Source: Bacteroidota bacterium (lineage in GTDB: Bacteria; Bacteroidota; Bacteroidia; Bacteroidales; VadinHA17). Taken from it: DNA of 32,855 nt. The notes below the pieces were generated by a model that saw only the letters and a list, made by a program, of their open reading frames with translations, ran no database searches and was not told the DNA's origin. Below, piece by piece: positions 6,167 to 31,387 of this stretch. The translations under genes and the position numbers were made by a program. The stretch is taken from the NCBI GenBank assembly GCA_025350595.1, contig JANXXP010000352.1, forward strand, positions 1 through 32,855. The letters are read 5' to 3'. How positions within the stretch are numbered: position 1 is the first letter of the stretch; each line of letters starts with the position of its first letter.

Positions 6167-7543
6167 TCACCCACTCTTTCTAAGCACTGTGCTGGTCACT
6201 TTTCCATCAATGAATTGTGTTTCAATATTATCATCAATCATTATCTTATCCATATTCTTCAATATCTTACCATTAACAGATGTAATGGTGTATCCTCTCT
6301 GGAGAACATTTTCAGGTTTCAGGATATTCAGTGTATTTTCTAAATCTTCCAGCCTGATATTATTTTGTGAAATAACGTTAATGGCTTTTGCAATTAAAAG
6401 CTGCTTCATCCTTTCAAGTGCTGCCCATTTTTCAGAAGAATAAGAATTTACTCCTGAAACTAGTCTGGATTTATGGTTTGCAGGAATTAATCCTGCTCTC
6501 GAAGTAAAATCTCTTCCAATATTAATGATCTCTATAATTTTTCCTGAAAGTTGATCTTTTATACCAGATATCATCAAACGACTAAGTGGTACAAGTCTGA
6601 TTGCTGAGGTCTCGACCCTTTTTTTGTTCGCTTCTATTATTATCCTCGCGTTATCTTTAATTAATGAGCCGAGTACAATCAATTGTTCCTCAGCTTCTGA
6701 TACCTTGGCGATAAGGAAATCAGCAACAGCTGTTGGCGTTTTAAGCGACCTGTTAGCAACCATATCAGCAACAGATATATCCTTTTCATGGCCAATTCCG
6801 GTTATTACCGGCAAGGGAAACTGTGTAATATGATACGCAATATTGTAGCTGTCAAACCAACTGAGATCAGATTGGGAACCTCCACCCCTGATGATGACTA
6901 CCACATCGAACAAGTGAGCATTATTTGCAATTCTATTGAGTGCACTTATTACTCCTTCTTCTGTTTCGCTCCCCTGCATGGCACTCTCGATCAGGGCAGA
7001 ATAAAAAACATATCCGAAACTATTCCCTTTCAGATGGTTAATAAAATCTGAATATCCTGCTGCACCGGAAGAAGAAATAATTGCTATTCTTTGAGGAAGA
7101 ATTGGCATCTCAAGCTCCTTATTCATTGAAAAGACTCCTTCCTCCTCCAGCCTTTTGATAACAAGCTGACGTTTTATTGCCATTTCACCAATGGTAAAAG
7201 CAGGATCAATATCGGTTATTACCAGACTAAGTCCGTATAATTCATGATATTCAATTTTTACTTTGATAAGTATATTGAAACCTTCCTGCAGAGATTCACC
7301 TGTAATATTTTCAAAAAGTGCTTTGAGAAATCTGTAGCGATTATTCCAGATTATAGCCTTTACCCTTGCCCTGACATTCTTCTCATCCGGATTTTTTTCA
7401 ATTAGTTCAAGGTAACAATGACCGTTGAAATTTTCTTTGATCTCAGAAATTTCAGCAACTACCCAGTACATGTCAGGTAGTGCCATATATAGTGAATCTC
7501 TTATTATCAGCTGTAATTCAGTTAAGGAAAGTTTCTCAGCCAT
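6167..7543 (-). CDS. xseA: Exodeoxyribonuclease VII large subunit
   Basis: VVAEISEIKENFNGHCYLEL, IAIISSSGAAGYSDFINHL, VVVIIRGGGSQSDLSWFDSYNIAYHI, PVITGIGHEKDISVADMVANRSLKTPTAVADFL. Confidence 0.95.
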   Translation of the reverse strand: MAEKLSLTELQLIIRDSLYMALPDMYWVVAEISEIKENFNGHCYLELIEKNPDEKNVRARVKAIIWNNRYRFLKALFENITGESLQEGFNILIKVKIEYHELYGLSLVITDIDPAFTIGEMAIKRQLVIKRLEEEGVFSMNKELEMPILPQRIAIISSSGAAGYSDFINHLKGNSFGYVFYSALIESAMQGSETEEGVISALNRIANNAHLFDVVVIIRGGGSQSDLSWFDSYNIAYHITQFPLPVITGIGHEKDISVADMVANRSLKTPTAVADFLIAKVSEAEEQLIVLGSLIKDNARIIIEANKKRVETSAIRLVPLSRLMISGIKDQLSGKIIEIINIGRDFTSRAGLIPANHKSRLVSGVNSYSSEKWAALERMKQLLIAKAINVISQNNIRLEDLENTLNILKPENVLQRGYTITSVNGKILKNMDKIMIDDNIETQFIDGKVTSTVLRKSG

Positions 7544-24306: not shown

Positions 24307-25137
24307 ATGTATGAAGTAATTGTAAGAAATCAGAAGATAAGCGACAAAAAATTTTTCCTGATTTCAGGCCCTTGTGTTATTGAAGAAGAAAAAATAATGA
24401 TGGAAGCAGGAGAAAAGCTAAAATCATTGTCCCTGAAATTGGATTTACCTGTTATTTATAAGTCATCTTTTATGAAAGATAACAGAAGTTCAGTAGATTT
24501 TTTTGCCGGACCGGGCTTAGATGAAGGATTGAAAATGCTGGAAAAAATAAAAAATACTTTTGATCTGCCTGTTCTGTCTGACATTCATTATCCTGATCAG
24601 ATTAAGGCAGCCGCTGATGTTCTTGATATAATTCAGATTCCTGCGTATCTTTGTATGCAAACTATACTTATTGTTGAAGCTGCCAAAACCGGGAAAGCCA
24701 TAAATTTGAAACATGGGCAATTCATAGCGCCTGAGAATATGGGAAAGCCAGTTAAAAAAATTGAATCACAAGGTAATAAAAACATCATTCTTACTGAAAG
24801 AGGATATACCTTCGGTTACAATGATCTGGTAGTAGATCCAAGAAGTTTTTATGAGATGAGGAAATTTGATTATCCTGTAGTTTTCGACATCACTCACAGT
24901 ATTCGTAAATATGGGATTCCCAGTTCAGATCCCAGGGGAGGAATGAGGGAATATCTACCTGTAATATCAAGAGCCGGGGTAGCTTCCGGAGTAGATGGAA
25001 TTTTTATTGAAGTTCACCCCGATCCGGCAAATGCAAAATGTGATGCCGCCAGTCAGCTTAAACTTAAAGACCTTGAGGATTTTATCAAGCCTTTAATTGA
25101 AATACACAACATTGAAAAATCATTCAGATTAAACTAA
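24307..25137 (+). CDS. kdsA: 3-deoxy-8-phosphooctulonate synthase (KdsA-like, divergent)
   Basis: FFLISGPCVIEEE, YKSSFMKDNRSSVDFFAGPGLDEGLKML, LPVLSDIHYPDQI, DIIQIPAYLCMQT, KTGKAINLKHGQFIAPENM, PVVFDITHSI, GVDGIFIEVHPDPANAKCDAASQL. Confidence 0.88.
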   Translation: MYEVIVRNQKISDKKFFLISGPCVIEEEKIMMEAGEKLKSLSLKLDLPVIYKSSFMKDNRSSVDFFAGPGLDEGLKMLEKIKNTFDLPVLSDIHYPDQIKAAADVLDIIQIPAYLCMQTILIVEAAKTGKAINLKHGQFIAPENMGKPVKKIESQGNKNIILTERGYTFGYNDLVVDPRSFYEMRKFDYPVVFDITHSIRKYGIPSSDPRGGMREYLPVISRAGVASGVDGIFIEVHPDPANAKCDAASQLKLKDLEDFIKPLIEIHNIEKSFRLN

Positions 25138-25150
25138 ATATATATAGATC

Positions 25151-26167
25151 ATGGAATTATTTCTCGATTCAATAAAAATTGATGAGGTTCAGAGAGCACA
25201 TGAACTTGGGTTCGTTTCAGGATTAACCACAACTCCAACCTTCATGCAAAGAGAAGGTGTAACAGATGTTGATTCAGTTATTCTTAAGTTGTCAAAGATG
25301 ACCAAAATTCTGATGGTTGAGTCTTTAGGCCTCACTGCAGATGAAATTATCAGGGAAGCTGACAGGTTATTGAGCCTGGGCCTGGATATTAATACAACAG
25401 TTTTCAAAATACCGATTTCATTTGAAGGGGCTAAAGCCTGTAAGGTACTTACAGATAAAGGATTAAAAGTAAATCTTCATCTTGTTTATACAATTCAACA
25501 GGCTTATTTTGCATATTGTGCCGGCGCTACATATATCTGTCCTCTCGTAGGTCGGCTTCAGGATCAGGGGCAGGACGCTTTGTCCCTTGTTGAGCAATGT
25601 GTTAAAGCTGTGGAAAGATATAACTATAAAACCAAAGTTATGTTTTCATCCGTTAGAAGTGTTGAACATGTCAGAAATGCGCTGAATATAGGGGCTCATG
25701 CATGTACAGTTCCCTGGAATATTTTAAAACAACTTCCTGAGAATCACTTCACTGAGTTGGGAATAAAGCAATTTGTTGAGCATACTGCAATGTCAAATAC
25801 CAAAGCTTATGATTTAGTTAAAACTGACATGATCTTCCTGAATAGCAGTTCAACGGTTCTTGATTCAATAATCCTGATGACTGAATCAAAAATGGGAGCA
25901 TGCATTATTCTTAATGATAAAAAAGAAATCCATAGAATTTTTACAGATGGAGATCTAAGGAGACTATTAAAAAGTGGTCAGAATAATATTGTAAATAAGA
26001 AATTTACAGAATTGGAACCCAATTCTCCAATATCCGTAAATATAAATTCCTCACTTCAGGAAATAACAAATGTTTTTAAGGCAAAGGATGTCGATAATAT
26101 TGTGGTTACTGACGACGAAAAACCTATCGGTCTTATTGATATTCAGGATGTACTAAAATGGATTTAG
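25151..26167 (+). CDS. Transaldolase/fructose-6-phosphate-aldolase-like domain fused to a KdsD-like CBS pair
   Basis: N-terminus MELFLDSIKIDEVQRAHELGFVSGLTTTPTFMQREG, VFKIPIS, ATYICPLVGRLQDQG, VMFSSVRSVEHV, ACTVPWNILKQL (FSA pattern, Lys in FKIP). C-terminus IHRIFTDGDLRRLLKSG...DNIVVTDDEKPIGLIDIQDVLKWI (CBS pair, KdsD-like signature). Confidence 0.85.
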   Translation: MELFLDSIKIDEVQRAHELGFVSGLTTTPTFMQREGVTDVDSVILKLSKMTKILMVESLGLTADEIIREADRLLSLGLDINTTVFKIPISFEGAKACKVLTDKGLKVNLHLVYTIQQAYFAYCAGATYICPLVGRLQDQGQDALSLVEQCVKAVERYNYKTKVMFSSVRSVEHVRNALNIGAHACTVPWNILKQLPENHFTELGIKQFVEHTAMSNTKAYDLVKTDMIFLNSSSTVLDSIILMTESKMGACIILNDKKEIHRIFTDGDLRRLLKSGQNNIVNKKFTELEPNSPISVNINSSLQEITNVFKAKDVDNIVVTDDEKPIGLIDIQDVLKWI

Positions 26168-26832
26168 AAAAGGAATTTATAAAGCTTGGAGGAAAATTTT
26201 TAACGCCTTCAAATCAGATAATATCTTCTTTGGCAAAAATAAAAGCCTTTGTATTTGACTGGGATGGCGTTTTTAACGATGGCAGGAAAACAGGTGATTC
26301 CGGCAGTTCATTTTCAGAAGTTGATTCAATGGGAATAAACCTTCTGAGGTTTGACTTTTGGTTAAGAAATAACTACTTCCCGAAGGTTTTTATTCTAACA
26401 GGAATGAAGAATGAATCAGCTTCTGAATTTTCAAAAAGGGAACATTTCGACGGGATATTTCTCAATGCAAAAAACAAAATAGAGCCATTTAAAGATATTT
26501 GCAGTAAGTATAAGATAGCTGCAGATGAGGTTGCTTTTATCTTCGACGATATTTTGGATATAGAGGTAGCAAAAGTGAGCGGATTGTCATTTTTCGTTGG
26601 AAGAAAATCAAATCCTTTACTAACGGATTATATTATTCAAAACGAGGTATGTAACTATATTTCAGGTTTCTCAGGACAGAACCATGCCGTTAGGGAGATA
26701 TGTGAGCTGATTATCGGATTATCAGGAGATTATAGAATGGCTCTTGAACTGAGAATTGAGTTTAAGGGAAAATATGAAGACTACCTCCTCAAAAGAAATC
26801 TGGTAAGTACAGACGTTGTGTCGATACAGTAA
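26158..26832 (+). CDS. KdsC-like HAD phosphatase
   Basis: IKAFVFDWDGVFNDGRKTGDSGSSFSEVDSMGINLL, VFILTGMKNESASEF, DGIFLNAKNKIEPFKDI, DEVAFIFDDILDIEVAKVSGLSFFVGR, AVREICELIIGLSG. Overlaps the upstream gene by 10 bp. Confidence 0.82.
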   Translation: MDLEKEFIKLGGKFLTPSNQIISSLAKIKAFVFDWDGVFNDGRKTGDSGSSFSEVDSMGINLLRFDFWLRNNYFPKVFILTGMKNESASEFSKREHFDGIFLNAKNKIEPFKDICSKYKIAADEVAFIFDDILDIEVAKVSGLSFFVGRKSNPLLTDYIIQNEVCNYISGFSGQNHAVREICELIIGLSGDYRMALELRIEFKGKYEDYLLKRNLVSTDVVSIQ

Positions 26833-26864: not shown

Positions 26865-27941
26865 TTACATTCTTTTGTACCACTCAATAATTCTTTCTTT
26901 GTTGACATGTTCTGGCCATTCAGGACCAAATGCGTGGCGCCACATATGCTCTAGTCCAAGGGCAGTAACCGCCATCTTATCAAACTGTTCCGGTGTCAAT
27001 CTTTTTGATATCTGAGTTGGAATATCGATCTTATGCTTTTCAACCATGAAATGAAATTCATTTACAGCTTTTCCATATATTTCTTCCAGTTGGTTAAAAG
27101 CTATACAATTAGCAATTCCATGATGTAACCCCAGTACATATGAAAGCCCATAAGACAATGCATGACAAACACCTACTTCACTGTGACCAATGCTCAAACC
27201 TCCGAAATATGAAGCTACCATAAGCTTTTCATCAGCCTCTTCACGTGAGATAATGTCATTGAGGAAAACTTCACGGCATAACGTCTGTGATTGTGTTGCA
27301 TATGAATCGCTGATGGAGTTTCTGTTCATCCCATCCATCGACTCAACATTGTGTATGTAAGCATCCATACCCGTATAAAAGCGTTGGTTTTTAGGCGCTT
27401 CGGATATTAATTCCGGGTCAAGAACTATCAGGTCAAAAGGGGTAAACTCTCCTTTTATTCCAAGTTTCTTAACTGGACCGGTAAGTACTGCCGTCATTGA
27501 AACTTCAGCACCTGTTCCAGACAGAGTTGGAATGCCGATATGGTACACACCCTGGTTTTTAGCAAGGTTCAATCCCTGGTATAATGAGGAAGATCCCTCA
27601 TTTGTAAGCATAACTGAAACAGCTTTGGCATAATCCAAAACACTTCCCCCACCAATTCCTATAACAGCTGAAACCATCCCCTTTCCGGAATCTTTAATCT
27701 GATCCCGGATACTGTCTACGACTTTCGTCTTTGGTTCATCATCGACATTTATCCAAATGATATAGTCAGCTCCTTTTAATGGGATCCTCTTTTCCAGAGG
27801 TTTATTTTTAAAAAAGTCATCCACGAGAAAAACAATATGTGAGTTACTACTGGTGCGGTTGTTCTCCAGAATTCCACTCAATTCATTAAAACTGCCCTTT
27901 CCAAACAAACATCTTGGAACCGATTTTATAACCCTGAACAT
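26865..27941 (-). CDS. kdnB: Iron-containing alcohol dehydrogenase, probable 3-deoxy-D-manno-octulosonate 8-oxidase
   Basis: VIGIGGGSVLDYAKAVSVMLTNEG, HIGIPTLSGTGAEVSMTAVLTG, DLIVLDPELISEAP, GMDAYIHNVES, HHGIANCIAFNQLEE. Adjacent to a KdnA-like aminotransferase and the kds genes. ATG at 27941 is preferred over TTG at 27971. Confidence 0.78.
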   Translation of the reverse strand: MFRVIKSVPRCLFGKGSFNELSGILENNRTSSNSHIVFLVDDFFKNKPLEKRIPLKGADYIIWINVDDEPKTKVVDSIRDQIKDSGKGMVSAVIGIGGGSVLDYAKAVSVMLTNEGSSSLYQGLNLAKNQGVYHIGIPTLSGTGAEVSMTAVLTGPVKKLGIKGEFTPFDLIVLDPELISEAPKNQRFYTGMDAYIHNVESMDGMNRNSISDSYATQSQTLCREVFLNDIISREEADEKLMVASYFGGLSIGHSEVGVCHALSYGLSYVLGLHHGIANCIAFNQLEEIYGKAVNEFHFMVEKHKIDIPTQISKRLTPEQFDKMAVTALGLEHMWRHAFGPEWPEHVNKERIIEWYKRM

Positions 27942-27967
27942 ATAATTTATTGTATTAGTATTATTTG

Positions 27968-29158
27968 TCAAAATATATCTTTGAGTGCTTTTTCAATTTT
28001 TGAAGTGAGATTCTGAATTTCCTCTTCTGACCATGTTATCCTGATCTGAATAGAAACCAGCCGGGAGATTATACTATCAGATTGAGGAAAAACAATCGTT
28101 GCATAATCCTGGGGTGATTTAAATAAAGAAATTGCCAGTTTTGAAGCGGCTTTCATATTCCTGATATGATCCCAGTTTCTAAAATAGTGGTAATTATTAT
28201 CATACCAATATGCATATCCTATTCCATGTTTATCAAAGGATTTCAGTACTTTGCGTGTTGTTGTTTCATCCTGAAGGAAAAAATCGAGAAAAGTGGCACT
28301 ATCTCCATTTTTGTCAGGAACCGTTCTAAAACTGATCTGGGTATATTTTGCAAACGTATTTTCTAATTTGCTTTTGTTCGCCCTCTGTCGTTCGAGAATA
28401 TATGGCAGTTTCCTGAATTGAGCGAGACCAACAGCTGCATGAAGCTCGCTGATGCGGTAGTTCGTTCCAATTATAGGATGAGGTTCAGCACCTCTGTTAT
28501 TCCCTACATGACTATGACCATGGTCGGAATGTTGAGCTGCAGTTTCATAAAGAATAGGATCATCTGTAATAATAGCTCCTCCTTCAGCAGCTGAGACGAT
28601 TTTGAAAAAATCGAAAGAAAATATGGCAATTTTACCAAATGTACCGAGAGGCTTGCCTTTAAATGAAGCTCCCAAAGCCTGGGCTGTATCTTCAATAAGA
28701 ATGAGATTATGTTTTTTGCACACCTCAACAATTTTATCAATCTGTGCCATTGACCCACACATATGGACAAGTAAAACAGCTTTGGTCTTTGGTGTGATTA
28801 CAGCCTCAATACTTTCAGGATAGAGACATAAAGTTTCATCTATTTCCGCAAATACAGGGATTGCTCCGGCATTTAAAATAGCTTCAACAGGGGCAATAAA
28901 AGTGAAAGGAGGCACGATTACCTCATCCCCAACGCCAATTCCACAACAGGCTAATGCAAGATTGTCAGCGGTGGTTCCACTTGAAGTGAGGTGAGCAAAC
29001 CTGACTCCATGATATCGGGCAAGGTCATTCTCAAAAGATTTGGCTTTCCATTGCCCATTTCTTTGTTGATCATGATTATACCGGAAAAGGATTCCCGTTT
29101 CAAGCACATCCATAACTTCCTTTTTCTCTTCTTCCCCAAAAAGTTCTGTACCAGGCAT
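27968..29158 (-). CDS. kdnA: DegT/DnrJ/EryC1-family aminotransferase, probable 8-amino-3,8-dideoxy-D-manno-octulosonate transaminase
   Basis: HLTSSGTTADNLALACCGIGVGDEVIVPPFTFIAPVEAILNAGAIPVFAEID, LILIEDTAQALGASFKGKPLGTFGKIAIFSFDFFKIVSAAEGGAIITDD, GTNYRISELHAAVGLAQ. Confidence 0.8.
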   Translation of the reverse strand: MPGTELFGEEEKKEVMDVLETGILFRYNHDQQRNGQWKAKSFENDLARYHGVRFAHLTSSGTTADNLALACCGIGVGDEVIVPPFTFIAPVEAILNAGAIPVFAEIDETLCLYPESIEAVITPKTKAVLLVHMCGSMAQIDKIVEVCKKHNLILIEDTAQALGASFKGKPLGTFGKIAIFSFDFFKIVSAAEGGAIITDDPILYETAAQHSDHGHSHVGNNRGAEPHPIIGTNYRISELHAAVGLAQFRKLPYILERQRANKSKLENTFAKYTQISFRTVPDKNGDSATFLDFFLQDETTTRKVLKSFDKHGIGYAYWYDNNYHYFRNWDHIRNMKAASKLAISLFKSPQDYATIVFPQSDSIISRLVSIQIRITWSEEEIQNLTSKIEKALKDIF

Positions 29159-29191: not shown

Positions 29192-30367
29192 TCAATAATT
29201 TTTTGGCAATCTTACTTTATGTAGAAAGAAATCCAGATTACAAATAATATATAGATCATAATTAAAATCATAGATTGAATTTTTATAATCATAAAAAGAT
29301 TCATAGGCTGCTGCCAATTTAATACCATTTGATATATCGTGATGGATAAATACTTTGGACAAAAATAAACTACGGTTGGGAGTTTTGAATCGGTCTGGTG
29401 TTGGCACACCCAATCGCTCCGGATCATTTATTGCAGAAATATTACTGAAAATCCTTTCTCCACGAGGATTGAAGAACTGAAATCCTGACCAGTATCCTGC
29501 TGTAAAATTAATAAATGAAGTATTGACGTAAACGTTTGAATACCTGCCATTCCCATTGGTATACGATATGTTGTGTGGTGATACCATGTCTTTATATTTC
29601 AGATAATATCCGTTGGCACCAATGCTTTTAACAAATGTGCGATCAAAACTATAATCCAATGAAAGACCACAGGTTCCATTGAAACGAGTAATCATCATTG
29701 TAGTATCAAGGGTATTCTGTCCTCCTTTATGTGCAAATAAAAGCTGAAGAGGGATCCCTATTTTCAATGGTTTAGATGGTTCTGTGAGCAAGATTTCAGA
29801 TGAATATCCTAAAGAGAACTGCTCTTTACGGGGATCACTGAATCCAATAAATTTCTGCCAGTTTAGCCATAGATCACCTCTGTAATGGGCATTATGATAC
29901 AAGAATTGTACTCCGTTTTCAACATTTTCTTCGAGATATCTGTCAAAACCATATATTGGCTCTATCATTCTATGATTTATGGTCCCGTACAAGCTGCCCA
30001 TTACCAGATCAAAATTGGGCAAAATCCGATATTGAAATCTAAAGAAAGGCAGGGTTTGTGAAAACCCGTTTAATCCCGAATACTTTAACAAGTGAACCCC
30101 AAATTGTATAATGGTATTTCCAGAAGGCTGGTAGGAAAAAGTCGGACGTAATATATATCCTAAATAGGTGTGTCCTTCTGCTATAGGATTAAAGTATTCA
30201 AGATTCCTTAAGAAATTAATATTCTCAACTCTTAGAAAGATCTTCTGGGTATTGGCCGTATCGAGAACGGATTGAGACATAAAGAATTCATTGTCACGAT
30301 TTTGCGAAAAAATAGCAACCCATGTAATGAGTAGGAAGAAATATGTTAATAGAAATTTTTTACCCAT
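29192..30367 (-). CDS. Hypothetical outer-membrane beta-barrel protein
   Basis: 391 aa; signal peptide MGKKFLLTYFFLLITWVAIFSQ; alternating aromatic beta-strand pattern (LGYILRPTFSYQPSGNTIIQFGVHLLKYSG...); upstream of kdnA on the same strand. Confidence 0.6.
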   Translation of the reverse strand: MGKKFLLTYFFLLITWVAIFSQNRDNEFFMSQSVLDTANTQKIFLRVENINFLRNLEYFNPIAEGHTYLGYILRPTFSYQPSGNTIIQFGVHLLKYSGLNGFSQTLPFFRFQYRILPNFDLVMGSLYGTINHRMIEPIYGFDRYLEENVENGVQFLYHNAHYRGDLWLNWQKFIGFSDPRKEQFSLGYSSEILLTEPSKPLKIGIPLQLLFAHKGGQNTLDTTMMITRFNGTCGLSLDYSFDRTFVKSIGANGYYLKYKDMVSPHNISYTNGNGRYSNVYVNTSFINFTAGYWSGFQFFNPRGERIFSNISAINDPERLGVPTPDRFKTPNRSLFLSKVFIHHDISNGIKLAAAYESFYDYKNSIYDFNYDLYIICNLDFFLHKVRLPKNY

Positions 30368-30649: not shown

Positions 30650-31387
30650 ATGGCACTTGTACATGAATTGGAAAACAGCGGCAATTGGTTATTTAAACGG
30701 CGGAGCTGGCTACCGGTCTTTATGATCATTGCAGGCATTATTGCGATGTATCTTGGAAACCGGCAGGCAATTCTATTTAGTATGCAGAATGAACTTATAT
30801 TTCTGGGAGTTAGTATTTTTGGACAGATTATCAGAGTATTGACTGTGGGTTTTACTCCGAAAAATACTTCAGGGCGAAATACAAACGATATTCAAATAGC
30901 TGATCAGCTTAATGTAACAGGTATTTATTCGTTGGTTCGCCATCCTCTGTATCTTGGAAATTTCTTCATGTGGCTGGGCCCTGTTTTGTTTTTAAGATCG
31001 GTATATTTTACAGTTATATTCGTGCTTTTTTATTGGTTGTATTATGAAAGGATTATGTTTGCTGAAGAACAGTTCCTACGGAAAAAATTCGGCGATATCT
31101 ATGACAAATGGTCAGAAAACGTTCGAGCCTTCATTCCCTATTCCTTCAAATTTATTCCTGCAAATCTTCCATTTTCAATAAAGAACGTTCTTAAAATGGA
31201 ATATAACAGTTTTGTAAACATATTTGTCACATTCGCACTTATTGATATTTTCAGGAACTATTTCCTCTCGAACAGGATATATATGACTAAGATGTGGATT
31301 TACTTACTGATTTCGGCTTTTTTAATATGGGTCGTCGTCAGGACTATTCAAAAACATACGAAGTGGCTTGAAGTTGAAGGCCGATAA
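30650..31387 (+). CDS. ICMT/PEMT-like membrane methyltransferase; candidate lipid A Kdo2 1-phosphate O-methyltransferase (LmtA-like)
   Basis: MALVHELENSGNWLFKRRSWLPVFMIIAG...GIYSLVRHPLYLGNFFMWLGPVLF...YYERIMFAEEQFLRKKFGDIYDKWSENVRAFIP (isoprenylcysteine-methyltransferase-type RHPxYxGNF...EExFLxxxFG motif) with multiple TM segments. Confidence 0.7.
   Translation: MALVHELENSGNWLFKRRSWLPVFMIIAGIIAMYLGNRQAILFSMQNELIFLGVSIFGQIIRVLTVGFTPKNTSGRNTNDIQIADQLNVTGIYSLVRHPLYLGNFFMWLGPVLFLRSVYFTVIFVLFYWLYYERIMFAEEQFLRKKFGDIYDKWSENVRAFIPYSFKFIPANLPFSIKNVLKMEYNSFVNIFVTFALIDIFRNYFLSNRIYMTKMWIYLLISAFLIWVVVRTIQKHTKWLEVEGR

Follow-up and report, generated by a model that had tools for sequence, protein, structure and literature searches.

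The gene at 25151..26167 (+ strand) of the window, i.e., of the entire stretch of 32,855 nucleotides that was analysed, very probably encodes a non-orthologous replacement of the arabinose-5-phosphate isomerase KdsD, as far as sequence comparison can tell. Its product of 338 aa (TAL-CBS), a candidate arabinose-5-phosphate (A5P)-forming enzyme delineated by open reading frame, Pfam matches, and a structural model, joins a transaldolase-type barrel (residues 1-211; 25151..25783, +) to a KdsD-like CBS pair with the motif FTDGDLRR (residues 215-338; 25793..26164, +). Kdo is the sugar that anchors lipopolysaccharide, and its synthesis is near-universal among Gram-negative bacteria and an antibiotic target; the first step has been described as one reaction carried out by one enzyme family.

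There is consistent evidence for the fusion of the two domains. Residues 3-202 match the Pfam family TAL_FSA (PF00923; E 2.5e-34) and residues 292-338 the Pfam family CBS (E 2.7e-12). The NCBIfam models kpsF and KdsD match residues 218-336 (E 3.7e-15 and 4.1e-13) with their CBS halves only, and the match to TIGR00393 is likewise limited to the CBS half. When the tail was searched against PDB sequences, the CBS domains of three arabinose-5-phosphate isomerases (4o9k, 3fna, and 3k2v) came out on top, and FTDGDLRR is present in 76 of 81 family members. By profiles and PDB matches, the tail is a KdsD-type CBS pair at the C terminus, and its closest relatives in sequence are the KdsD isomerases; a CBS tree built with no outgroup did not show a descent from KdsD. 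TAL-CBS shares this pair, the association with kdsA, and the inferred role with KdsD/KpsF/GutQ but carries an unrelated barrel in place of their SIS catalytic domain, which was not found in a profile search with Pfam and NCBIfam. The AlphaFold model (59 sequences) has a mean pLDDT of 94.2 and a pTM of 0.77. Because 80 independent loci encode the same colinear, full-length protein, the fusion is not a product of chance or misassembly. The sequence-only reading, which had described a barrel without SIS domain followed by about 120 residues of a KdsD-like CBS pair, was right on both points.

The barrel belongs to the TAL/FSA superfamily, based on its fold, the Schiff-base lysine (Lys86, equivalent to FsaA K85; codon 25406..25408, +), and the catalytic Asp6, both of which are invariant in all 81 aligned sequences, as are E57, N108, R135, S167, and R169. 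The lysine lies in the VFKIPIS motif, where it had been seen in the sequence-only reading, and the changes noted there from TTNPT to TTTPT and from NVTLVF to NLHLVY correspond to Thr28 (25232..25234, +; Asn in FSA and transaldolases) and His110 (25478..25480, +; Thr109 in FsaA), each found in 81 of 81 sequences. Together with Cys130-Pro-Leu132 (25538..25546, +; Cys in 75, Thr in 6, and Leu in all 81 sequences; the FsaA equivalents are A129 and Y131, those of transaldolases Ser and Phe), the pocket is altered at four positions, which in transaldolase structures touch dihydroxyacetone or keep the catalytic water in place. At one of them, the A129S variant of FsaA is reported to have a better affinity for dihydroxyacetone, going by the title of a paper cited in PMC6298115. 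The alignment thus indicates that the lysine chemistry is retained and the donor pocket remodelled.

The original assignment to the FSA type holds only at the level of the superfamily. FsaA (1l6w) has the same fold and lysine but lacks the CBS pair, and its Gln59 and Tyr131 are replaced by E57 and L132 in all 81 members; the score against the FSA model TIGR00875 (160 bits) is below the cut-off of 245.95. A Foldseek search with the modelled barrel returned the small transaldolases of Thermotoga maritima (TM0295; 1vpx), Thermoplasma acidophilum (3s0c), and Bacillus subtilis (3r8r), with target TM-scores mostly of at least 0.9. These proteins (about 32% identity) share the barrel, the Schiff-base lysine, the catalytic Asp6 and Glu57, and Arg135/Ser167 with TAL-CBS, whereas TAL-CBS has Thr, His, Cys/Thr, and Leu in place of their N28, T109, S129, and F131 (FsaA numbering) and differs also in its C-terminal CBS pair and its operon with kdsA. 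Judging from E57 and the best structural matches of the model, TAL-CBS is of the transaldolase type and not of the FSA type (Q59/Y131), but with T28 and L132 in all 81 sequences, it retains the glutamate of classical transaldolases without their pocket.

The position of the gene between kdsA and a kdsC-like gene, which had been recognized from the sequence, is borne out by the annotation of its neighbours. The upstream kdsA (24307..25137, +) encodes a Kdo-8-phosphate synthase that scores above the curated cut-off (334.5 versus 314 bits) and has the motif KDNRS (24475..24489, +) in place of the canonical KANRS. The downstream gene (26158..26832, +), whose start overlaps the end of the TAL-CBS gene by 10 bases, encodes a HAD phosphatase with only a weak match to the KdsC profile (65.5 bits; cut-off 208) but with KdsC phosphatases as its nearest PDB structures. 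Side by side on the other strand follow genes for a KdnB-like iron alcohol dehydrogenase (Kdo 8-oxidase; 26865..27971, −) and a KdnA-like aminotransferase (8-amino-Kdo transaminase; 27968..29158, −), which are close relatives of 5k8c (E 3.4e-116) and 5k8b (E 5.5e-142), structures that we take to be KdnB and KdnA. Because these two genes adjoin the cassette, Kdo and then 8-amino-Kdo are the expected products of the pathway, and 8-amino-Kdo is probably a constituent of the organism's lipopolysaccharide. The KdnA/KdnB pathway has reportedly been described in Shewanella, with an ordinary Kdo supply; we know of no earlier link to a transaldolase. Next to the cassette, 30650-31387 (+) and 29192-30367 (−) encode a relative of LmtA (230 bits; cut-off 325), which in Leptospira is the lipid A Kdo2 1-phosphate methyltransferase, and a remote member of the LpxZ family (181 bits; cut-off 460), so that a lipid A modification cluster may be present.

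At least 451 relatives were recovered when 84,980 species genomes were scanned. The 80 loci that were kept all encode full-length proteins (51-78% identity) and stem mostly from Bacteroidota but also from Desulfobacterales and Ignavibacteriales; cultured hosts include Thermonema rossianum, Thermoflexibacter ruber, Raineya orbicola, and Flexithrix dorotheae. The gene is located beside or near kdsA in 54 and adjoins a kdsC-like gene in 66 of the 80 loci; kdnA (16), kdnB (15), and a kdsB-like gene identified from sequence (16) are also found nearby, and none of the 80 loci contains an SIS gene. On the context of these loci, a coincidental neighbourhood of TAL-CBS and kdsA was rejected. A plasmid search yielded no TAL-CBS among the matches listed, the best of which were ordinary FSA genes or partial, and a literature search covering papers outside subscription journals returned no account of TAL-CBS or of a transaldolase route to Kdo.

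A genome tends to encode either TAL-CBS or the SIS isomerase KdsD but seldom both, in comparisons that include many metagenome-assembled genomes. KdsD is absent from 46 of 50 genomes with TAL-CBS; the remaining four (G121, G128, G135, and G154) encode both enzymes. Of 296 genomes sampled from the phylum, each at least 90% complete, five encode TAL-CBS; these five have kdsA but no SIS, whereas SIS is present in 209 of the 213 other genomes with kdsA, none of which has TAL-CBS. In one family (f12; 111 genomes from 32 genera), 16 genomes encode TAL-CBS, 92 the SIS isomerase KdsD, three neither, and none both; counted by genera (4 versus 28), the p value is 3e-5, whereas Fisher tests at the genome level ignore kinship. 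The association is weak (p 0.01) in the window's own family, which is rich in metagenome-assembled genomes and where SIS likewise went undetected in 17 of the 83 kdsA genomes that have no TAL-CBS. On genome co-occurrence, TAL-CBS thus accompanies kdsA in the manner of an A5P source.

Several genomes depart from this pattern. Neither enzyme was detected in a number of kdsA-bearing genomes of the home family (G007, G016, G080, G062, and G024) and of the phylum sample (G189, G366, G434, and G450), many of which are at least 95% complete, which would be explained either by gaps in the assemblies or by a further A5P source, the third. Two genomes of one genus (G031 and G088) contain both the TAL-linked and the canonical kdsA, and G088 also has an intact SIS isomerase alongside TAL-CBS, which means that the two systems can coexist or that bins are mixed. 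Genomes of family f12 (e.g., G485:C4:51918-52265) encode CBS proteins that stand alone, are about 150 aa long, and resemble the CBS half of KdsD.

The genome that contains the window (98.2% complete, 396 contigs) apparently lost its own isomerase. The sequence-only reading had named a canonical KdsD elsewhere in the genome as evidence that would speak against it; a profile search of the contigs found no normal kdsD, and the sole KdsD-like SIS is an open reading frame of 105 aa on contig C393. This remnant of kdsD, from which an internal segment has been deleted cleanly and in frame, occupies the syntenic site (L001:1375-1692), ahead of the MFS and phosphotransferase genes that follow there in sister genomes too. 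Over its initial ~92 codons it is similar to the single-domain SIS isomerases of these genomes (63-72% identity in the aligned part), and it then continues in the same frame with the final ~14 codons of these isomerases (GYLGIKSREISEKK), ~95 codons being gone; the assembly across the remnant contains no N bases. The reading of a kpsF match on the same contig (G000:C393:6427-6591) as a normal kdsD truncated by the end of the contig was rejected; because the match is internal to a contig of 29.5 kb and lacks ~95 internal codons, it is a remnant.

Three other genomes are natural swaps between TAL-CBS and KdsD. The closed genome G415 has the order kdnA-kdnB-kdsA-HAD-kdsB, with TAL-CBS absent between kdsA and HAD and an SIS-CBS KdsD encoded elsewhere; G465 and G478 combine kdsA-HAD-kdsB without TAL-CBS with a KdsD. 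At the place of the missing gene, G415 has only a few bases (L205 ~6721-6843), which contain a palindromic repeat of the type TGTCGGGTTTGAGAACCCGACA. Phylogenetically, the kdsA of G415 is placed deep inside the TAL-linked clade, as sister to that of G356, a genome with TAL-CBS (support 100/100). One type of KdsA thus functions with either enzyme, a sign that both provide A5P. The earlier proposal that TAL-CBS supplies the acceptor of KdsA in place of KdsD is therefore strongly supported as regards the replacement, by mutual exclusion, operon context, swaps, and the remnant in its own genome, whereas we infer A5P as product, its formation from glycolaldehyde and glyceraldehyde-3-phosphate, and a control of TAL-CBS by CMP-Kdo.

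Bacteria with TAL-CBS probably make A5P by a different chemical route. The formation of an aldose by aldol addition in a class I aldolase requires an aldehyde donor, and the combination of glycolaldehyde and glyceraldehyde-3-phosphate with the stereochemistry of FSA yields D-arabinose-5-phosphate. In the proposed mechanism, Lys86 would form a Schiff base with a small aldehyde, most likely glycolaldehyde, which would be added to glyceraldehyde-3-phosphate held by Arg135/Ser167. The neighbouring KdsA would join the resulting A5P to PEP, the KdsC-like phosphatase would then yield Kdo, and KdnB/KdnA, where present, would convert it to 8-amino-Kdo. The CBS pair, of a type reportedly crystallized with CMP-Kdo in KdsD (4o9k), would probably sense CMP-Kdo or CMP-Kdo8N and throttle the first committed step. 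In its entirety, i.e., as a KdsD replacement that makes A5P from these two substrates, this reading seems to us somewhat better than evenly poised.

Escherichia coli encodes both FsaA and FsaB, which are poorly expressed. The two enzymes are reported to form A5P from glycolaldehyde and glyceraldehyde-3-phosphate (PMC6298115), and FsaA made A5P both in vitro and in vivo within a synthetic pathway, where TalB performed worse (PMC9947464). Yet the loss of kdsD and gutQ makes E. coli auxotrophic for A5P (PMC11301363), which, despite the presence of FsaA and FsaB, weighs against a glycolaldehyde route, and the natural supply of glycolaldehyde may be small. Also to be counted against this route are the absence of the Tyr131 and Gln59 of FSA and the co-occurrence of both enzymes in four of the 50 genomes and in G088.

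The main rival is a transaldol transfer, in which a true transaldolase would move dihydroxyacetone from octulose-8-phosphate, formed by transketolase from glucose-6-phosphate, to glyceraldehyde-3-phosphate, releasing A5P and fructose-6-phosphate. Such a route would draw on abundant metabolites only and is in line with E57 and N108, both of the transaldolase type, and with the transaldolases that the model matches best in structure; by stereochemical reasoning, cleavage of octulose-8-phosphate between C3 and C4 would yield D-arabinose-5-phosphate. Transketolase is reported to form D-glycero-D-ido-octulose-8-phosphate from fructose-6-phosphate and glucose-6-phosphate, and transaldolases handle octulose phosphates (PMC5854111). 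What makes the transfer unlikely are the changes to the dihydroxyacetone pocket (N28T, S130C/T, and F132L) in every member of the family.

The TAL-linked KdsA offers the best argument for an acceptor other than A5P. It forms a separate clade, with KDNRS for KANRS, an altered loop after a conserved TH, and invariant substitutions in the A5P-binding region (A61D, R120M, and Q205R; E. coli numbering), and of the four genomes in which the two systems coexist, three also possess both types of KdsA, whereas G154 has only the KDNRS type. TAL-CBS could then form another aldose phosphate, which the KDNRS-type KdsA would convert to a different ulosonic acid. This possibility carries little weight, because the three swap genomes combine the same KdsA with KdsD alone, the KdnB and KdnA neighbours are close to enzymes that act on Kdo, and KdsA passes the cut-off for Kdo-8-phosphate synthases. 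The substitutions suggest a co-adaptation of the TAL-linked KdsA with TAL-CBS.

Even less probable is a barrel turned isomerase that would convert ribulose-5-phosphate to A5P as KdsD does, with His110 and Glu57 as acid/base. It would require no new metabolite, agrees with the genetic role of KdsD, and would assign a function to the invariant His110, which is new in this family and lies next to the strand of the catalytic lysine; however, the aldolase Schiff-base Lys86 and the phosphate-binding residues are fully conserved, and on chemical grounds a C2 imine of ribulose-5-phosphate has no simple way to an aldose. To our knowledge, the TAL/FSA family contains no isomerase. An ordinary transaldolase of the pentose phosphate pathway with a regulatory tail, located near kdsA by accident, with A5P provided, e.g., by GlmS, is hardly credible, even though the window's own genome encodes no other TAL/FSA relative at E<=1e-10 and human and yeast GFAT can complement an A5P isomerase mutant of E. 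coli (PMC11301363), because the operon is kept across phyla, KdsD is excluded or swapped, and the pocket is altered, and because 209 of 213 kdsA genomes keep KdsD although GlmS is generally present in bacteria.

Returning to the aldol route from glycolaldehyde, we consider it an evenly balanced proposition that many Bacteroidota and some Desulfobacterales and Ignavibacteriales use a dedicated A5P aldolase for Kdo synthesis that is controlled by a product of the pathway via the CBS pair. We know of no earlier example of a natural biosynthetic use of the aldol reaction of glycolaldehyde and glyceraldehyde-3-phosphate, which has so far been exploited in synthetic pathways; if the proposal is true, TAL-CBS would be the first. 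Glycolaldehyde would gain a biosynthetic role, and the family would provide a natural A5P aldolase; an aldolase with a very high affinity for glycolaldehyde has been named as a means to better glycolaldehyde assimilation (PMC9947464). The annotation gap of genomes that possess kdsA without kdsD would be filled, and the first step of Kdo synthesis would have a second, unrelated solution, present in hundreds of genomes.
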